The notes beneath the pieces are model-generated. The model was not told where the DNA came from, made no database searches, and saw only the letters and a list, made by a program, of their open reading frames with translations. Shown one piece after another: positions 7,224-39,498 of a stretch of DNA of 64,000 nucleotides; within the stretch, counting starts at the first letter, position 1; each line of letters starts with the position of its first letter. The DNA is taken from assembly GCA_002707155.1 (NCBI GenBank), contig PAME01000025.1, positions 62,001 through 126,000 of the forward strand, given 5' to 3'. A program made the position numbers and the translations under genes. Source of the stretch: Crocinitomicaceae bacterium (GTDB taxonomy: Bacteria; Bacteroidota; Bacteroidia; Flavobacteriales_G; Salibacteraceae).

Positions 7224-7931
7224 TCAAATCAAGTCTAATACATTTGTTACGCCAATAGGTCTTTCAATAGTAAAACCTTCTCCAAATTCAACACCAATCA
7301 TTCTGCCGTGCTCTCTGGCTCTAGCTTCCAGAAAATCTTTGAACTCTTTAGAACTAATTGGAGAATCTGGTTCTTTTGAATTGGGGTCGTAAAACTGACT
7401 AGAGTAGGCCATTATACTTTCCATTTTTTTTGACCAGTATTCCGTTATATCTATCACAAAATGAGGCGTTAATCCTCTATCTTGTATATAATTATATACT
7501 GCTTTTGGTCGCCACGGTTCTTGATTGGTGTCTGCTTTTACCAAACCACTCAAAAAACAGGCACGAGAAACTAAGGAAGCCCCTCTCCCATGATCGGGAT
7601 GACGATCGGAAACCGCATTTGCAAAAACAACTTCTGGCCGATATTTTCTTATCATTTCTACAACTTTCATTAAGTTGGTTTGGTCAATTTCGAAAAAACC
7701 GTCTGCTACTCCAAGGTTTTCACGAACGGAAAGACCTAGAATCTTTGCTGCCTTTTCTGCTTCTTGCATTCTCAATTCAGCGCTTCCTCTTGTGCCTAAC
7801 TCCCCCTTGGAAAGGTCAACAACTCCAATTTTTTGTCCTAAGCCCTGGTGGTATAATAAAGTACCCGAAGCTGCTAGTTCGATATCGTCAGGGTGAGCTC
7901 CAAAAGCAAGAATGTCTAATTTCATGTTCAA
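7224..7931 (-). CDS. bshB1: Bacillithiol biosynthesis deacetylase BshB1
   Basis: A 235-residue member of the LmbE/PIG-L zinc deacetylase family. The zinc motif AHPDD is at residues 12-16 and the second metal/catalytic HPDH at 111-114. GELGTRGS, and YSSQFY near residue 175, are typical of BshB1. It removes the acetyl group from N-acetylglucosaminyl-malate to give GlcN-malate, the middle step of bacillithiol synthesis. The start may be the ATG at 7931 or the one at 7925 (MKLDILAF). bshA and bshC are not in the window. It is convergent with the upstream secreted protein and divergent from ccmB. Confidence 0.92.
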   Translation of the reverse strand: MNMKLDILAFGAHPDDIELAASGTLLYHQGLGQKIGVVDLSKGELGTRGSAELRMQEAEKAAKILGLSVRENLGVADGFFEIDQTNLMKVVEMIRKYRPEVVFANAVSDRHPDHGRGASLVSRACFLSGLVKADTNQEPWRPKAVYNYIQDRGLTPHFVIDITEYWSKKMESIMAYSSQFYDPNSKEPDSPISSKEFKDFLEARAREHGRMIGVEFGEGFTIERPIGVTNVLDLI

Positions 7932-7987
7932 TAAGTTTCTCCGATTAACTTTGCAAAAGTGAGTATTTAAAGCTTAACAACTATATA

Positions 7988-8647
7988 GTGCAAATTAATC
8001 GTATTAAATCATTGATTCATAAAGAGTTCCTCCTAGACTGGAAGGAGAAAAACAGCCTTGCGAGTATTCTCATTTATGTCACTAGCACCGTATTTGTTTG
8101 CTACTTGTCTTTTCAAACAATAATTGAAACCACTACTTTTAATGCCTTGCTTTGGATTATAATCCTATTTACCTCAGTGAATACCATCACAAAAAGCTTC
8201 GTGCAAGAATCAGAAAATAGATTACTGTATATGTATTCACTAGCCAATCCACAAGAAATAATTGTTGGCAAGTTGATTTACAATTCCATTTTGTTACTAT
8301 TAATTTCTCTAGTCACCTTTTCTGCTTACGCTCTTTTTTTAGGAAACCCCATTGTTAATCTCCCCGGCTTTCTTGGAGCCCTAGTATTAGGTTCTTTAGG
8401 CTTATCGATTCTTCTGACATTAATGGCTGCTATTGCTTCAAAATCATCAAACAACCCAGCACTAATGGCAATATTAAGCTTTCCAATTATCATCCCTTTT
8501 TTAATAACCATTATCGCATTATCACTCAATTATTCTCAAGGTGTTAATGATACTCAAAATTTGAAGTATTTCTTCGCAATTGGAGGCATTATGGCCATTG
8601 GGATAACTATGGCCTACCTATTATTTCCATACCTTTGGCGCGACTAA
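7988..8647 (+). CDS. ccmB: Heme exporter permease CcmB
   Basis: A 219-residue integral membrane protein with about six hydrophobic segments. It has the CcmB N-terminal signature (KEFLLDWKEKN, then the SxxFVCYLSF-type first helix) and ESENRLLYMYSLANPQEIIVGK. In the Ccm system I pathway CcmB is the permease that works with ATPase CcmA and CcmC to load heme on CcmE. The start is GTG at 7988; no better ATG exists upstream. It opens the cluster ccmB-ccmC-ccmD-ccmE-ccmF. No ccmA is found here. Confidence 0.88.
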   Translation: MQINRIKSLIHKEFLLDWKEKNSLASILIYVTSTVFVCYLSFQTIIETTTFNALLWIIILFTSVNTITKSFVQESENRLLYMYSLANPQEIIVGKLIYNSILLLLISLVTFSAYALFLGNPIVNLPGFLGALVLGSLGLSILLTLMAAIASKSSNNPALMAILSFPIIIPFLITIIALSLNYSQGVNDTQNLKYFFAIGGIMAIGITMAYLLFPYLWRD

Positions 8648-31962: not shown

Positions 31963-32037
31963 CGGGATGTAGCTTAGTCCGGTTAAAGTGCTGGTCTGGG
32001 GGACCAGAGATCGGAGGTTCGAATCCTCTCATCCCGA
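31963..32037 (+). tRNA. tRNA-Pro (GGG anticodon)
   Basis: A cloverleaf can be folded by eye. Acceptor CGGGATG (31963-31969) pairs with CATCCCG, followed by discriminator A at 32037. The anticodon stem is CTGGT/ACCAG with loop CTGGGGG, giving anticodon GGG (proline). The T arm is GGAGG-TTCGAAT-CCTCT. CCA is not encoded. The 3' end from 32017 is the integration site of the element that follows, and integration restores an identical tRNA end. Confidence 0.9.
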
Positions 32038-32039
32038 CT
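32017..32039 (+). repeat. Element attachment site, left copy (in tRNA-Pro 3' end)
   Basis: A 23-bp sequence beginning GTTCGAATCC and ending ATCCCGACT is repeated exactly at 39476-39498. Flanking bases differ on both sides (G/A before, T/A after). It covers the T loop to the 3' end of tRNA-Pro, the usual target of tyrosine integrases. Confidence 0.92.
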
Positions 32040-32140: not shown

Positions 32141-33607
32141 GTGAATGTCTCCCTCAAATTAGACACATCCAATAACGGAAAAGAAAAACCACTTTACATC
32201 AGGTTAAGAGGTAAGTCGGTTAATGGTAAAACTGAAGAAACATCCATTTCAACAGAAATAAAACTACTTCCTCGTCACTTTAAGAACAACGGTATTTCTA
32301 AAAGTTCTCCGAATTACAGTTCGAAAATTAAAGTTGTTAATTCTATTTTGGATGAAATTGAGAAGATTATTGGTGAGATAAACCATCAAGGAGAAATACC
32401 TAATCCTACTCTCGTCAAACATCTATATTTTGAAAATCGTGTTTCCAAGGAAGTTGTTACCCCCAACTATAAAAGTTTTTGGAATTCATTCGAAGAGTTT
32501 TATTTGAGTAAGAAACACAATTCAAGAGGGTATGTTAAAACGTTGTTGACTTTAAAGAATCATTTACTTGGGTTTCAGAAACATTCAAAACGAACAATCA
32601 CATTTGAATACATCACGGGTAAAACGATTCTATTTCAATCTCACTTTCAAGATTATTTGTGGTCTCAAAAGAATTTGAGTAATGGATATATCAATAAACT
32701 ATTTAATAATCTTTCAAACTTTCTTTTTTGGTCTCAACAACTGAATTATATCCAACAAAAACCAAAATTCACCAAACTACGTGAGGTTGACAGAGATGAG
32801 AAAATCTATTTAAAGACTGAGGAGATATACAAGTTGTTTTCCTCTTCAAAGTGGAACTATAAAGAGGAGAAGGATTTAAAAAAGAATCCACATATTACCA
32901 TTATCCGTGAATCATTAGAAGGAACCCGAAGTGAACATTTTGGAAGTGAACTGACAGTGACTAATTGGGAATTAGTTAAAGATGTGTTCCTATTCATGTC
33001 TTCTGTTGGTTGTAGATATTCGGATATTGAACACTTTAAAGTAAGACATTTTGATTTCAACTCTAATGTTCAAACATTGACTTGGATTCAACGAAAAACC
33101 AATAAGAGTGTTTCAGTACCAGTAACTGATATCAGTGGTAATATTTTCAAAAAGTATAGTGGTGGTAAGAGTTTGGAACAACGATTGTTTCCAAAAATAT
33201 CTCAACAAAAATTCAATAAACATCTAAAACTATTACTGAAAGATTTAAAGTTTAATCGATTGGTCTCACACCCTAAAATGAAGGGTTCTGAAATTATCGA
33301 TAATGATGACAAACAACTATGGGAATTGATTTCCTCTCATAGTGGAAGAAGGTCATTCATTAAGAACTTGATTGATTTAGGAAACATGGACTACAAAACC
33401 ATTATGAAATTATCCGGACACAGGTCATACTCAGAGTTCCTTAAATATGTTTCGGTAAACCAAGAGGACTTAATGAAAGGTTCTCAATTGTATAAACTAC
33501 AATCTAGAGACGAACAGGATGAAATGGAAGAAATTATAAATACAATTTCTTCTTTCGATGATGATAAACGGAAGTTAGTGTTACAGATGATTAGGAATTT
33601 GAAGTGA
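32141..33607 (+). CDS. Tyrosine recombinase / site-specific integrase
   Basis: A 488-residue integrase. The N-terminal part (about 1-100) is an Arm-like domain, a SAM-like core-binding domain is near 110-210, and the catalytic domain is at about 225-455. Catalytic residues read as Arg292 (GCRYSDI), Lys319, His400 and Arg403 (HSGR), His427 (LSGHRS) and nucleophile Tyr436. It would cut and rejoin the 23-bp site in tRNA-Pro. The start is GTG 32141, the only one giving an intact N-terminus. It is transcribed away from the tRNA, 100 bp inside the element. Confidence 0.93.
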   Translation: MNVSLKLDTSNNGKEKPLYIRLRGKSVNGKTEETSISTEIKLLPRHFKNNGISKSSPNYSSKIKVVNSILDEIEKIIGEINHQGEIPNPTLVKHLYFENRVSKEVVTPNYKSFWNSFEEFYLSKKHNSRGYVKTLLTLKNHLLGFQKHSKRTITFEYITGKTILFQSHFQDYLWSQKNLSNGYINKLFNNLSNFLFWSQQLNYIQQKPKFTKLREVDRDEKIYLKTEEIYKLFSSSKWNYKEEKDLKKNPHITIIRESLEGTRSEHFGSELTVTNWELVKDVFLFMSSVGCRYSDIEHFKVRHFDFNSNVQTLTWIQRKTNKSVSVPVTDISGNIFKKYSGGKSLEQRLFPKISQQKFNKHLKLLLKDLKFNRLVSHPKMKGSEIIDNDDKQLWELISSHSGRRSFIKNLIDLGNMDYKTIMKLSGHRSYSEFLKYVSVNQEDLMKGSQLYKLQSRDEQDEMEEIINTISSFDDDKRKLVLQMIRNLK

Positions 33608-34828: not shown

Positions 34829-35449
34829 CTAAATTGTTGAAGCAAATATAGTGGATTTATATTTTTTAACTTTCTTAATCAAATTAGGAGAACACCCAAC
34901 TATCTTTTGTATTTCTGAATATTTCAAACCACGTTCTACGAGTTTGAATATCTCTTGGTTCTTAGGTTTAGAGAGGAACTTCTCATTTGATTCTTTCGTT
35001 CCTATTTGTCTTCCCTTATACAATCCTTTCTCTTTTCGGATTTTGATTCCCTCCATCTGTCGTTCCCTTATCAATGAACGTTCGAAATCACTCATTGTAG
35101 ATAGAATACTCATCATCAATTGTGAGAACTTATCTTCTTTACCATTCTCATCGATGTTTCTGAGATTGGGATTTCTACAAATGATGGTAATCTTCTTTTC
35201 AGAGAGTTCCTTCCATACTGAAAGAACATCTAATGTGTTTCTTCCTAATCTATCAATGGAGTGAATCTCCAAATGGGTGAGTTGGTTTGAATCAATTAGT
35301 TTTTTGATTTGAGAACCCTGTGGTCGTTCCCAAAACGGAATCAGACCGGAACACTTATCTACTAGAACATAATCGAATCCATCCGTATTTTGAATCTGTC
35401 GTTCCTCATTCTGAGATTGGGAACTAACACGTGAATAAAGTACCTTCAT
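34829..35449 (-). CDS. Serine recombinase (resolvase/invertase family)
   Basis: A 206-residue small serine recombinase. The catalytic domain has YSRVSSQSQ with nucleophile Ser9, DRLGRNTLDVL with the active-site arginines, and the long E helix around FSQLMMSILSTMSDFERSLIRER. A C-terminal Hin-like HTH is at about 165-200 (VERGLKYSEIQKIVGCSPNLIKKV). It could resolve, invert or shuffle DNA between paired sites. Candidate sites lie directly upstream of its start (35452-35565). It is cotranscribed with the LamG/T9SS cargo gene. Confidence 0.9.
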   Translation of the reverse strand: MKVLYSRVSSQSQNEERQIQNTDGFDYVLVDKCSGLIPFWERPQGSQIKKLIDSNQLTHLEIHSIDRLGRNTLDVLSVWKELSEKKITIICRNPNLRNIDENGKEDKFSQLMMSILSTMSDFERSLIRERQMEGIKIRKEKGLYKGRQIGTKESNEKFLSKPKNQEIFKLVERGLKYSEIQKIVGCSPNLIKKVKKYKSTIFASTI

Positions 35450-35451
35450 TT

Positions 35452-35565
35452 TACTATTATTTAAGGGTAATCAGGAAACGTGTCTAAAATAATAGTATAT
35501 CCTGAGAAAATCAAGGTTTTACAAGGGGTTCGATACTATCATTTGAAGTGTACTCTAAAATGATA
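35452..35565. promoter_or_regulatory. Candidate recombinase binding cluster (res-like)
   Basis: Four copies of an 11-bp motif lie just upstream of the serine recombinase. TACTATTATTT is at 35452-35462 and its exact inverse AAATAATAGTA at 35487-35497. TACTATCATTT is at 35534-35544, and a partial inverse with AAATGATA at 35558-35565. They form two inverted pairs, of 46 and about 32 bp total, like the subsites of a resolvase res site. Function is inferred from position and layout only. Confidence 0.55.
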
Positions 35566-35571
35566 ATGATT

Positions 35572-35720
35572 GAGGTTTTCACCCAACTATAAAAACCTGA
35601 CTTCGATATATAAACCACCCATTTTCAAACTCTAACCAAAGGTTTGAATCGGTTTACAAGAAAATACCCCCACCCCCTTTAGGTGGTTTCACTCATCTTC
35701 TTCCACCAATCGGTTTTGTT
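35572..35720 (+). repeat. Long structured repeat R1
   Basis: First of three direct copies (R1, R2 at 36567-36698, R3 at 37472-37585) sharing a core of about 100 bp. The core has a hairpin TTCAAAC (35624-35630) / GTTTGAA (35642-35648) nested inside AAACCACC (35612-35619) / GGTGGTTT (35682-35689), and a C-rich run between. A further CCACC at 35703-35707 could compete for GGTGG. It lies between the recombinase and the first cargo genes. Shared by R1 and R3 only is the leading segment gaggttttcacccaac. Confidence 0.85.
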
Positions 35721-35750
35721 TTTGGAAATTTGTATCTTGGTTGTTCTAAA

Positions 35751-35885
35751 ATGAAGTTATGGAATTTATCAAAAATATCTGATGAGGTCCTTTACGAGTT
35801 GGGGATTGACAAAATGGTAGTTCTACTTGTTACAAGTGGGATGAAGAAATATCTTAAAAGACACAGAGAAATCTTTAATCAATAA
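35751..35885 (+). CDS. Small ORF of 44 residues
   Basis: ATG 35751 to TAA 35883-35885 encodes a basic 44-residue peptide (begins MKLWNLSKISDEV, ends KYLKRHREIFNQ). It lies between repeat R1 and the lipoprotein gene, 18 bp before the latter. A near-consensus box TATCTTGG is just upstream. No family is recognised; it may be a real small protein or chance. Confidence 0.35.
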   Translation: MKLWNLSKISDEVLYELGIDKMVVLLVTSGMKKYLKRHREIFNQ

Positions 35886-35903
35886 CTAAAAAAGGTTTAG
35901 AGA

Positions 35904-36554
35904 ATGAAACACTTAAAAAAAGTATTAGGTATCATATACATTCTGAGTGTTTTGTCCTCTTGTACAAAAGAAAAAGAGTATCCTAAACCCTGTGTAGGTG
36001 ATTGTGAAACTAAGTTCCATCTGATTTATAAAAACGTAGAAATACCAATTAGTTCTGATGGATATTACAGAATACAATGGGATGGGTTAAATTACTTTCA
36101 AATTGAAGGGGAGTTATCAGAATTAGACCCTCATTATGTTATCAATAAAGTCCCTCTAATTGAGTGTAACTTCGATTCAGACTATTGGATTGTGATGGAC
36201 TCAATAACCTTTCGGACTCCAATGTATTCATATTTAGGTTGGTTTAATGATATTGGTTTAAACACTCCAATTCCAATTGGTCAATATACATATACAATTA
36301 TCACTTTATCTGATTTGTATTCCCCTTTGAATATAGTTGGGTATGAAATTCCAAAAAAAGGATGTTTCGATTGTCCTTACTTCCCTACACTAATTGGAAC
36401 ACATTCAAAATACACCTATAACCCTAAACAAAACATCTTATTCGATAATGAATTTGAAGGAGACACCATCAACATTTTCATACAGTCTATTTTCAATAGT
36501 GATGTTGGGGAAACAGTTACAATTGATGACAAATTCAAGATAATTGTTTTATAA
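35904..36554 (+). CDS. Lipoprotein of unknown function (element cargo)
   Basis: A 216-residue protein with a type II signal peptide. The N-terminus MKHLKKVLGIIYILSVLSSC ends in lipobox LSSC with Cys20 as the lipidation site. The next residues (TKEKE) are charged and may act as the Bacteroidota surface-export signal, which is inference. The mature part is rich in aromatic and hydroxyl residues and likely beta structure. No known family is recognised. It stands between repeats R1 and R2 and is followed closely by R2. Confidence 0.7.
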   Translation: MKHLKKVLGIIYILSVLSSCTKEKEYPKPCVGDCETKFHLIYKNVEIPISSDGYYRIQWDGLNYFQIEGELSELDPHYVINKVPLIECNFDSDYWIVMDSITFRTPMYSYLGWFNDIGLNTPIPIGQYTYTIITLSDLYSPLNIVGYEIPKKGCFDCPYFPTLIGTHSKYTYNPKQNILFDNEFEGDTINIFIQSIFNSDVGETVTIDDKFKIIVL

Positions 36555-36566
36555 AAGACTTGAATT

Positions 36567-36698
36567 AAAAACCTGACACCGATATAAAAACCACCCACTT
36601 TCAAACCCAATGAAAAGGTTTGAATCGGTTTACAAGAAAATACCCCCACCCCCTCTTTAGGTGGTACTCATCTTCTTCCACCAATCGGTTTTTGTTTT
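36567..36698 (+). repeat. Long structured repeat R2
   Basis: The second copy starts 13 bp after the lipoprotein stop. Inner stem TTCAAACC (36600-36607) / GGTTTGAA (36617-36624) is 8 bp. Outer stem ACCACC/GGTGGT ends at 36660-36665. The C-rich run and the downstream CCACCAATCGG are kept. It lacks the leading segment found in R1 and R3 and runs into a fragment of the coiled-coil gene. Confidence 0.85.
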
Positions 36699-36711
36699 GA
36701 GTTGGTACTCT

Positions 36712-36781
36712 TTCATATCAATAGAATCTGATAGTATTCCAAACTCATCAATTTTTGATTCTCTATCATTCTCAAATTTGA
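36712..36781 (-). pseudogene. Fragment of the coiled-coil gene (5' part)
   Basis: The minus strand matches the codons near the start of the gene at 37978-38478 (around DIESKIDEFGILSDKI, compare 38395-38460), with several substitutions. It ends in the 17-mer atcattctcaaatttga at 36765-36781, which recurs at 37289-37305, where the matching remainder of the fragment resumes. Confidence 0.65.
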
Positions 36782-36810
36782 TAATGTATACTGAATTTAA
36801 AAAATTATTC

Positions 36811-36818
36811 TATCTTTG
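36811..36818 (+). promoter_or_regulatory. Putative -7 box TATCTTTG
   Basis: An exact TAnnTTTG match ends 4 nt before the ATG at 36823 inside the element. No -33 TTTG at normal spacing. Confidence 0.4.
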
Positions 36819-36822
36819 ATCA

Positions 36823-37167
36823 ATGGAAAATATAATTTTACCCGGTTTAGGAGGATTAGTTCTCTTCTTAGTAATAACACTTTTAGGTTCACTTGGTGGG
36901 TTTCTATTCAAGTTAAAAGTCATTAAATCAGGTGATTTAAGTAAATACAACAAATCACAAATCATAACTGAACTCGGAGATCCAGTTAACATTATTAATG
37001 AAGAAGAAAATCAAGTCTTAGTTTGGTTGAAATCTTCTGGAACTTATATGTTAAAAATTGAATACACAAATCAGGGGGATTTTGTTAAAATTAACCAACA
37101 ATTAGATCAAACAAAAAATGGACTTAAAGGGTTTCTTTATAATCTTATTTTAAAGTTTATTAAGTAG
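36823..37167 (+). CDS. Small membrane protein of unknown function (element cargo)
   Basis: A 114-residue protein with one N-terminal membrane helix (about residues 6-28, PGLGGLVLFLVITLLGSLGGFLF). A soluble part of about 70 residues follows with LSKYNKSQIITELGDPVNIINEEENQVLVWLKSSGTYML, resembling small domains of the BamE/SmpA type by eye (a weak call). The gene and its flanks (36782-37288) split a duplicated gene fragment and are bounded by a 17-bp direct repeat. This suggests it was inserted as a unit. Confidence 0.6.
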   Translation: MENIILPGLGGLVLFLVITLLGSLGGFLFKLKVIKSGDLSKYNKSQIITELGDPVNIINEEENQVLVWLKSSGTYMLKIEYTNQGDFVKINQQLDQTKNGLKGFLYNLILKFIK

Positions 37168-37288
37168 TTTTAATTACGGGAGAAAGAATAAGAGAAAATT
37201 TCAAAAAGTTGAGTTTGTTGATTGGTATAAAACCAAAGCAGATGACGGTTGTCATGACGGTAGAATATCTTAAGTAGACTGTAGAAAA

Positions 37289-37480
37289 ATCATTCTCAAA
37301 TTTGAATTCATTTAACCTCATCTACTTCCCCCATATATTATTCCATTTAAACTCGTCAGGTTCAACCTCCTGAGTGGTTTCCTGAGGTTTGTTCATCATC
37401 TTAGTGTTCAGATACCTATTGAGGTCAGATAACCTCATGTACCTTTTGTTTTTAGTAATCTTAATGATAGGGAGGTTTTC
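37289..37480 (-). pseudogene. Truncated duplicate of the HTH gene plus coiled-coil gene start
   Basis: On the minus strand the sequence encodes an open segment ENLPIIKITKNKRYMRLSDL and on to FKWNNIWGK, then TAG at 37322-37324. This is directly followed by ATG AGG TTA AAT GAA, the same start (MRLNE) as the intact coiled-coil gene. It parallels 38450-38640 closely but lacks the N-terminal half with the helix-turn-helix; repeat R3 replaces it. No good start codon remains. It is therefore a partial duplication, not a working gene. Confidence 0.75.
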
Positions 37481-37585
37481 ACCCAACTATAAAATCCTGA
37501 CATCGACATATAAACCACCCACTTTCAAACCCAATGAAAAGGTTTGAATCGGTTTACAAGAAAATCCCCCCCCTTAGGTGGGTTT
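37472..37585 (+). repeat. Long structured repeat R3
   Basis: Third copy. It shares the leading gaggttttcacccaac with R1 and the core with R1 and R2. Outer stem AAACCACC (37512-37519) pairs with GGTGGGTTT (37577-37585) with one bulge, and the inner 8-bp TTCAAACC/GGTTTGAA stem is kept. It precedes the DUF6150 cargo gene. The rest of 37168-37288 shows no gene. Confidence 0.85.
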
Positions 37586-37619
37586 ACTTCTAAATCGAAG
37601 AGTTTATTTGAGGATTTGT

Positions 37620-37627
37620 TAAGTTTG
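37620..37627 (+). promoter_or_regulatory. Putative -7 box TAAGTTTG
   Basis: An exact TAnnTTTG match, 24 nt before the ATG of the DUF6150 gene and 34 bp after repeat R3. No clear -33 TTTG. Confidence 0.4.
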
Positions 37628-37651
37628 GTATTATAATAAAACACTCACTTA

Positions 37652-37981
37652 ATGAAACACCTCCTCTTCATATTGTTCCTAATACCAATCACCTCCTACT
37701 CTCAAAAGGTGTTCTCAGTTGAGTATTCAAATCAATCTGATGTAAAGGTGTTTGTAGTTGAATATGAAAATCAATGTGATTTGAAGGTATTCAAAGTAGA
37801 ATACCCAAATCAAGTTGATGGGAACAAAGGGTTGTGGTATTTTGTAGATTACCCTAACCAATCAGATAAAAAGATATACTTCGTTGATTATCCCAACCAA
37901 AGTGATTTGAAGATTTATTTTGTGAAGTATAAGAATCAATCAGGTTGGAGAGATAAATCTAAACAACATTTGATGTATTAG
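37652..37981 (+). CDS. DUF6150-like repeat protein (predicted knotted fold)
   Basis: A 109-residue exported protein. Signal segment MKHLLFILFLIPITSYSQ is followed by six near-regular strands of the form V(x)VxYxNQxD: VEYSNQSD, VEYENQCD, VEYPNQVD, VDYPNQSD, VDYPNQSD, VKYKNQSG. The C-terminus is KSKQHLMY. From memory this pattern is the DUF6150 family, later described as a 7_1 (septoil) knot domain; I could not check this. Function is unknown. It is the last plus-strand cargo gene and its stop overlaps by 4 bp the end of the convergent coiled-coil gene. Confidence 0.75.
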   Translation: MKHLLFILFLIPITSYSQKVFSVEYSNQSDVKVFVVEYENQCDLKVFKVEYPNQVDGNKGLWYFVDYPNQSDKKIYFVDYPNQSDLKIYFVKYKNQSGWRDKSKQHLMY

Positions 37982-38478
37982 GAAACCATCCTCTTCAACA
38001 CCCCATTCAACCCATCAATACTCTTATTGGTATTCTTTAACCTACTGAATAACTTCTTAAAAGGAGATATTAGTTTCTTTAACATTGATTTTAAGGAGAT
38101 TTCATCCATTCTCTGAACACCAATTGTGGATACAACTCTACTAACTGTCTTAGTACTAAGTAGGATATCTTCCAATACCTTTTTGGTTTGTTTATTCACC
38201 TTAGTTAGTGATTCCACAAAACTCTCTTTGTATTTGAAGTTATCTCTATTGTATCCCATTCTTTTCAGAGTTACCAAATACCTCTTTGTTTGAATGGATT
38301 TCTTATTCTGTATTGTGAGTTGTTCCAACGTTGGTCGTAACTCTCCTTCAATCTCTTTGTATCGGTTTGAAAGTTCACTTAGTTCTTTCTTTACTTTATC
38401 AATCTTATCTGAGAGTATTCCAAACTCATCAATCTTTGATTCTATATCGTTCTCAAATCTAAATTCATTTAATCTCAT
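37978..38478 (-). CDS. Coiled-coil protein of unknown function
   Basis: A 166-residue, strongly basic protein. Residues about 10-65 form a coiled coil (KIDEFGILSDKIDKVKKELSELSNRYKEIEGEL); the C-terminus is rich in Lys and Arg (MLKKLISPFKKLFSRLKNTNKS). No domain is recognised. Its ATG directly follows the stop of the HTH gene, and the duplicate fragments at 36712 and 37289 keep that join, so the two are a unit. A role in element maintenance or mobilisation is possible but unproven. Confidence 0.65.
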   Translation of the reverse strand: MRLNEFRFENDIESKIDEFGILSDKIDKVKKELSELSNRYKEIEGELRPTLEQLTIQNKKSIQTKRYLVTLKRMGYNRDNFKYKESFVESLTKVNKQTKKVLEDILLSTKTVSRVVSTIGVQRMDEISLKSMLKKLISPFKKLFSRLKNTNKSIDGLNGVLKRMVS

Positions 38479-38724
38479 TTATTTACTCCATATATTCTTC
38501 CATTGGAAATCTTTATCAGGTTGTGGTTCCTGAGTAGTTTCCTGAGGTTGATTAACCATTTTGGTGTTCAGATACAGATGTAGGTCTGATAACCTCATAT
38601 ACCTCTTATTTTTAGTAATCTTTATAATGGGTAGGTTTTCTTCCGTTACCAATTTCTCAAAGTGACGTCTACTGATATTGAGATATCTCATCACTTCGTA
38701 CTTTGTCATTAGTTTATCTTCCAT
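38479..38724 (-). CDS. Excisionase-like helix-turn-helix protein
   Basis: An 81-residue protein with a MerR-like/HTH_17 winged helix: MTKYEVMRYLNISRRHFEKL, then LPIIKITKNKRYMRLSDLHLYL. This is the fold of phage and ICE excisionases and of small DNA-binding partners of integrases. It overlaps the upstream 86-residue gene by 11 bp. In an element with a tyrosine integrase it is the natural candidate for the directionality factor. Confidence 0.75.
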   Translation of the reverse strand: MEDKLMTKYEVMRYLNISRRHFEKLVTEENLPIIKITKNKRYMRLSDLHLYLNTKMVNQPQETTQEPQPDKDFQWKNIWSK

Positions 38725-38974
38725 AGTACTCCTTTATCTTTCTTTCAAACTCTTTTTGTTTTTCAATAGGGAGTTGTCCTATTCCTTTCTCTAAGGTTCT
38801 CTTTCCATTGAAAAGGATTGAATCTCTATACTTCTCATAAGTAATGAATAGGTTAATTAGAGATTTAGTGGTATCAGGAATCTTATCGGGTGGTAAATGG
38901 TATCCAACCTCATCCGTAAACTCTTTGAGTTTATCCATTAGTTCATTGTGTAATTCATTTGGTGATTGTTTCAT
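38714..38974 (-). CDS. Small hypothetical protein of element
   Basis: An 86-residue mainly helical protein (MKQSPNELHNELMDKLKEF ... KEFERKIKEYYGR); no family recognised. It is first in a three-gene minus-strand operon with the HTH and coiled-coil genes. Its ATG has a clear Shine-Dalgarno AAGGAG at 38983-38988, 8 nt upstream, which is unusual in this window. Confidence 0.65.
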   Translation of the reverse strand: MKQSPNELHNELMDKLKEFTDEVGYHLPPDKIPDTTKSLINLFITYEKYRDSILFNGKRTLEKGIGQLPIEKQKEFERKIKEYYGR

Positions 38975-39475: not shown

Positions 39476-39498
39476 GTTCGAATCCTCTCATCCCGACT
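39476..39498 (+). repeat. Element attachment site, right copy
   Basis: Exact 23-bp copy of the tRNA-Pro 3' end (same as 32017-32039). Chromosomal sequence resumes directly after it with a terminator. Confidence 0.92.

Follow-up and report, generated by a model that had tools for sequence, protein, structure and literature searches.

Three direct repeats (R1, R2 and R3) lie inside a 7.5-kb integrative island bounded by 23-bp direct repeats at tRNA-Pro, in a window of 64,000 nucleotides from a Crocinitomicaceae bacterium (the whole stretch of DNA analyzed, contig PAME01000025.1, positions 62,001 to 126,000). We think it probable (roughly 0.58) that these repeats are a conserved backbone or boundary sequence, and that cargo genes have been attached and exchanged there by recombination at short or partial homology. 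Under this model, R1 to R3 would be copies of a non-coding backbone sequence of small integrative islands found in one Flavobacteriales family. On one side this sequence would normally have the 3’ end of a 62-aa gene and on the other a serine recombinase dyad, with R1 as the copy in that place. R2 and R3 would then be additional, having arisen as cargo genes or another, related island became joined in. Cargo units may have been attached or exchanged between islands at this boundary, most probably through ordinary recombination where homology is short or incomplete.

The island (Table 1) has an integrase beside the tRNA gene, flanking direct repeats and an xis-like gene, which together mark it as a tRNA-integrated mobile island, and it also encodes a LamG-domain protein. 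The tyrosine integrase has a 97% identical copy at tRNA-Pro in genome G022, while the small serine recombinase shares 94-97% amino acid identity with those of G011, G018 and two G022 islands. The crossover-site-like dyad has its sole match within the window immediately to the left of R1. Among viral contigs, relatives of the serine recombinase were limited to two weak loci, and no relatives of the integrase, xis-like or DUF6150 proteins were found. On one 100-kb viral contig (L102), a 144-aa HNH-like protein (7773-8207) ends in a C-terminus that shares 77% identity with the recombinase’s C-terminal HTH part, a likeness that would suggest domain exchange with phages. A chaperonin-like ORF (1152-2765) is present on the same contig.

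Table 1. Features of the island in window coordinates.
Feature	Position	Strand	Basis or remark
Island left attachment repeat GTTCGAATCCTCTCATCCCGACT	32017..32039	+	23-bp exact direct repeat; 3’ end of tRNA-Pro 31963-32038
Island tyrosine integrase	32141..33607	+	Pfam Phage_integrase 2.7e-9
Small serine recombinase (resolvase/invertase family), HTH-like C-terminal part	34829..35449	-	Pfam Resolvase 1.8e-21; phrog_125 3.3e-34
Crossover-site-like dyad ATCATTTGAAGTGTACTCTAAAATGAT	35538..35564	+	One per island
R1 repeat proper, backbone copy	35572..35678	+	Repeat alignment
3’ remnant of 62-aa gene (...KTDWWKKMSETT stop)	35679..35722	-	Alignment with intact genes in G022C3/G011
Lipoprotein cargo unit	35727..36566	+	Gene 35904-36554 and small upstream ORF
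R2 repeat proper	36567..36653	+	Without 5’ arm of first small stem
3’ remnant of 62-aa gene fused to coiled-coil gene relic	36657..36736	-	Alignment
114-aa predicted membrane protein	36823..37167	+	Within relic of the island’s coiled-coil/xis-like genes
Relic: coiled-coil gene start and xis-like gene	37287..37480	-	Joined to R3 at GAGGTTTTC
R3 repeat proper	37472..37573	+	Repeat alignment
DUF6150 cargo unit, gene 37652-37981	37574..37981	+	Pfam DUF6150 2e-23
Island backbone: coiled-coil 166 aa, HTH_17 xis-like 81 aa, 86-aa protein	37978..38974	-	
Island right attachment repeat	39476..39498	+	23-bp exact direct repeat

The repeats reported in a preliminary description of this DNA are real and are direct copies of one another: a 27-bp core, AAGGTTTGAATCGGTTTACAAGAAAAT, is identical across all three, with 0 occurrences expected by chance. 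Each stands, as described, ahead of a different plus-strand gene, encoding a lipoprotein, the 114-aa protein and the DUF6150 protein. R1 consists of a small stem (GGTTTT/AAAACC), a spacer and a second stem (TTCAAAC/GTTTGAA) followed by GGTTTACAAGAAAATACCCCCACCCCC; R2 lacks the first ~25 bp. The repeat proper is ~105 bp long; the stretch of R1 and R2 that continues past the C-run is a gene remnant outside the repeat. The constant part, a core of ~60 bp, is made up of the stem TTCAAACC/GGTTTGAA and the adjoining stretch TACAAGAAA..ACCCC. The 3’ stem arm and this stretch are intact in 12/12 known copies, with junctions only outside both. The repeat is less conserved among relatives than the recombinase region (73-86% vs 87-96% identity, from small counts), so selection on it is likely rather than certain.

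Beyond the C-run, the outer right-hand portion of R1 and R2, GGTGG segment included, is the 3’ remnant of a 62-aa gene on the minus strand, a gene that is coding (pN/pS 0.22-0.32). The pairing of GGTGG with either of two CCACC segments can indeed be seen but does not belong to the repeat itself; it arises from the ACC ACC TAA codons of the 62-aa gene, and it is lost where another gene comes after the C-run. The interval between R2 and R3 was likewise more complex than described, containing the small membrane protein gene but also relics of a coiled-coil gene and an xis-like gene. The 114-aa gene segment (36764-37303) is flanked, within the coiled-coil gene relic, by two copies of about ATCATTCTCAAATTTGA, an arrangement that resembles a target duplication or a microhomology insertion.

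We found 12 full copies of the repeat in 8/35 genomes of one uncultured Flavobacteriales family, with agreement between BLAST and a covariance model; the comparison genomes are all draft assemblies, mostly MAGs, and the counts are small. A half copy also occurs on contig C20 of the same genome as the window. The copies in G007, G019 and C20 are near contig ends, where assembly error is possible, and those in the window, G020 and G022 are within long contigs. A covariance search of 395 class-wide genomes returned matches only in the same family, and neither phage and plasmid records (blastn) nor viral contigs (exact core pattern) gave a match. An exact-core scan of genome contigs recovered 9 loci, all from Flavobacteriales and all in genomes already found. 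In G013, the sequence beside glmS gave a weak match (E 0.0015) to a putative decayed repeat.

The order of 62- or 67-aa gene, repeat, dyad and serine recombinase recurs in G011, G022C3 and G018. R1 has the same order with the 62-aa gene reduced to its tail, and because one copy usually lies between the 3’ end of this gene and the recombinase dyad, we take R1 to be the backbone copy. The carrier islands are otherwise diverse. Those of the window and G022C3 have a tyrosine integrase at tRNA-Pro, those of G011 and G018 another tyrosine integrase at tRNA-Met or tRNA-Gln, and those of G012 and G022C5 a large serine integrase adjoining glmS, with other genes between recombinase and repeat. Neighbors to the left and right of the repeat vary among copies, so that the same sequence stands between different modules, as at a module boundary. 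The same genes in the same order at every copy would have spoken against a cassette role, and the repeats do not have this arrangement. The cargo of the G022C3 island includes a ParB-methyltransferase fusion. In several genomes, islands recur between glmS and a superoxide-dismutase-like gene, where serine integrases and relics of cargo are present (L035:5117-13961, L074:9887-18541, L031:4827-14000). Beside the G022C5 island, a cargo protein (L031:4035-4547) matches a candidate defense family, PDC-S18 (2.5e-76).

The cargo supports the cassette-like layout proposed earlier: the same units occur with repeats in other genomes and other surroundings, and identity changes abruptly at the repeat borders. 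The lipoprotein unit between R1 and R2 is also present in G007, a member of another genus, where 820/840 positions (97.6%) are identical. The repeats that flank it match at 84/113 (74%) and 79/91 (87%) positions (Fisher 2e-16 and 2e-5), and identity falls within a few bases of both borders. The left edge of the DUF6150 unit, beginning at the repeat end, is common to C20, G020 and the window. In C20 the C-run of the half repeat and the 62-aa gene are beside this unit in the opposite orientation, and in G022C3 and G013 the DUF6150 gene has a different upstream sequence. In G020, a tyrosine integrase gene is split by a 484-bp insert composed of the core, DUF6150 and a second C-run; the same gene is intact on another contig of that genome. 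The insert took the place of 19 target bases, a 30-base deletion is close by, and direct copies of AATACCCCCACCCCCT flank DUF6150 on both sides. A 354-aa tyrosine integrase is near-identical (96-99%) across several genomes of one genus (L091, L098, L092, L093), with more than one copy in G020. An apparent insertion of a solo repeat into a kinase-like gene in G019 is not claimed as clean, as a clear homologue match was found on the 3’ side only.

Junctions occur at several positions: ahead of the first small stem, close to AAAACCTGAC, past the C-run and within the tail of the 62-aa gene. Short matches accompany some of them, namely GAGGTTTTC between the xis relic and R3, ATCTGA-AG between the 62-aa and coiled-coil relics, and CCTGA in G020. 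These scattered junctions with short matches favor general recombination, or recombination assisted by microhomology, at a backbone sequence that the islands share; we infer both the mechanism of recombination and the direction of events. Simple homologous recombination within the repeats should often carry along the repeat sequence adjoining the cargo, and the lipoprotein borders count against it. The left edge near AAAACCTGAC recurs (R2/G007a, G019 and G020), as does the right edge after the C-run, which hints at preferred positions.

The tight lipoprotein borders and recurrent edges keep a second explanation in consideration, in which the core is the dedicated site of an unrecognized recombinase and cargo is captured at the C-run or left edge in a non-integron cassette system. 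We regard this as unlikely. Sharp breaks at both cargo borders, the direct AATACCCCCACCCCCT copies around DUF6150 in G020 and the constant part that no junction enters are all as such a site would predict. However, the junctions do not fall at one base, the G020 insert lost target bases and adjoins a further deletion, the carrier islands differ in their integrases and one serine recombinase is only 44% identical, and no single recombinase gene accompanies every copy. With junctions at several positions and no serine recombinase dyad at R2 or R3, the recombination sites of the preliminary description are still conjectural. The more specific proposal that the ~60-bp core and C-run are a capture site adding single cargo genes, a gene-capture platform particular to these Flavobacteriales, is marginally less likely; if the core were a real recombination site, it would represent a gene-capture system outside integrons. 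The likeness of GTTTGAATC to a tRNA T-arm or att core was considered and rejected: no observed junction falls at that point, and the repeat is also present in islands whose integrases are of the serine type.

Two further explanations assign the repeat a role other than recombination. The core could be a functional site of the island, such as an origin of replication, packaging or transfer, at which junctions gather only through its duplication. The strong conservation of a linear motif and the retention of a single copy in each simple island, across islands that differ in their integrases, are consistent with such a site. We nevertheless consider it improbable, since no replication or transfer gene common to the islands was recognized, phage, plasmid and viral collections hold no match, and the core is not more conserved than the recombinase region. 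A role between genes as a structured leader RNA, or as a terminator acting in both directions, is about as doubtful, even though one stem is kept in most copies, minus-strand terminator-like matches occur at R1 and R2, some copies lie between converging genes (G012, G022C5) and the minus-strand R2 RNA has the best fold (z = -3.2). The covariation check proposed for the stems found only TTCAAACC/GGTTTGAA kept, with 0/8 pairs changed on both sides, so a structured RNA is not supported. The terminator stem, which relies on the 62-aa gene’s codons, is missing from G007a, G018 and G022b, and the invariant TACAAGAAA..ACCCC is outside the stem. Fold energies are mostly near those of shuffled sequence, R3 folding no better, and Rfam returned nothing credible in the repeats at gathering or relaxed thresholds. 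The conserved leader RNA first envisaged thus finds no support in these tests. It is highly improbable that the neighboring serine recombinase uses the repeats as its sites: R1 is a few bases from the dyad, as are the copies in G011, G018 and G022C3, but the dyad occurs once per island in five islands with >94% identical recombinase and is absent at R2, R3, G007, G019 and G020 even with 6 mismatches, which makes this recombinase an unlikely agent at R2 and R3. A single dyad per island would suggest a role in multimer resolution.

Small marine integrated islands include tycheposons, VEIMEs and PICMI satellites. The island resembles these in being small, in encoding an integrase and a regulatory or xis-like HTH protein, in its site-specific insertion and in its variable cargo. 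It differs in its genes and in carrying the repeat as well as a serine recombinase that has one dyad. Small marine satellites are treated in PMC10803314. As a boundary sequence, the repeat would provide a concrete case, at the level of sequence, of small islands of uncultured bacteria swapping passenger genes at a common border, a case that includes an interrupted gene and its intact copy within one genome.

The layout has in common with integron cassettes that small cargo genes are separated by related repeats and that the cargo varies between copies. As the preliminary description held, the repeats are nonetheless unlike attC sites. A TIGR02249 search of the genome to which the window belongs found no integron integrase over the cut-off of 265 (best 121.6 bits), and all 14 control genomes likewise match below it. 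The attC R-box, GTTRRRY, is absent in 8/12 copies and inconsistently placed in the remainder. A gene and its repeat do not travel together, as the lipoprotein unit is 97.6% identical and the repeat that follows it 87% up to the C-run, and the junction point is variable. Among the literature titles listed, we found no direct precedent for integron-like cassettes in this group or for resolvase-linked cassettes.

Our preferred reading, of a boundary sequence used in cargo exchange, has its counterpart in the boundary or linker sequences of mosaic phages, discussed in PMC3029335. In both, a short conserved sequence is present at the junctions of exchangeable modules, and general recombination suffices. 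In contrast to mosaic phage boundaries, the repeat described here is ~105 bp long, belongs to integrative islands, is duplicated within one island and has a fixed position in the backbone beside the recombinase dyad.
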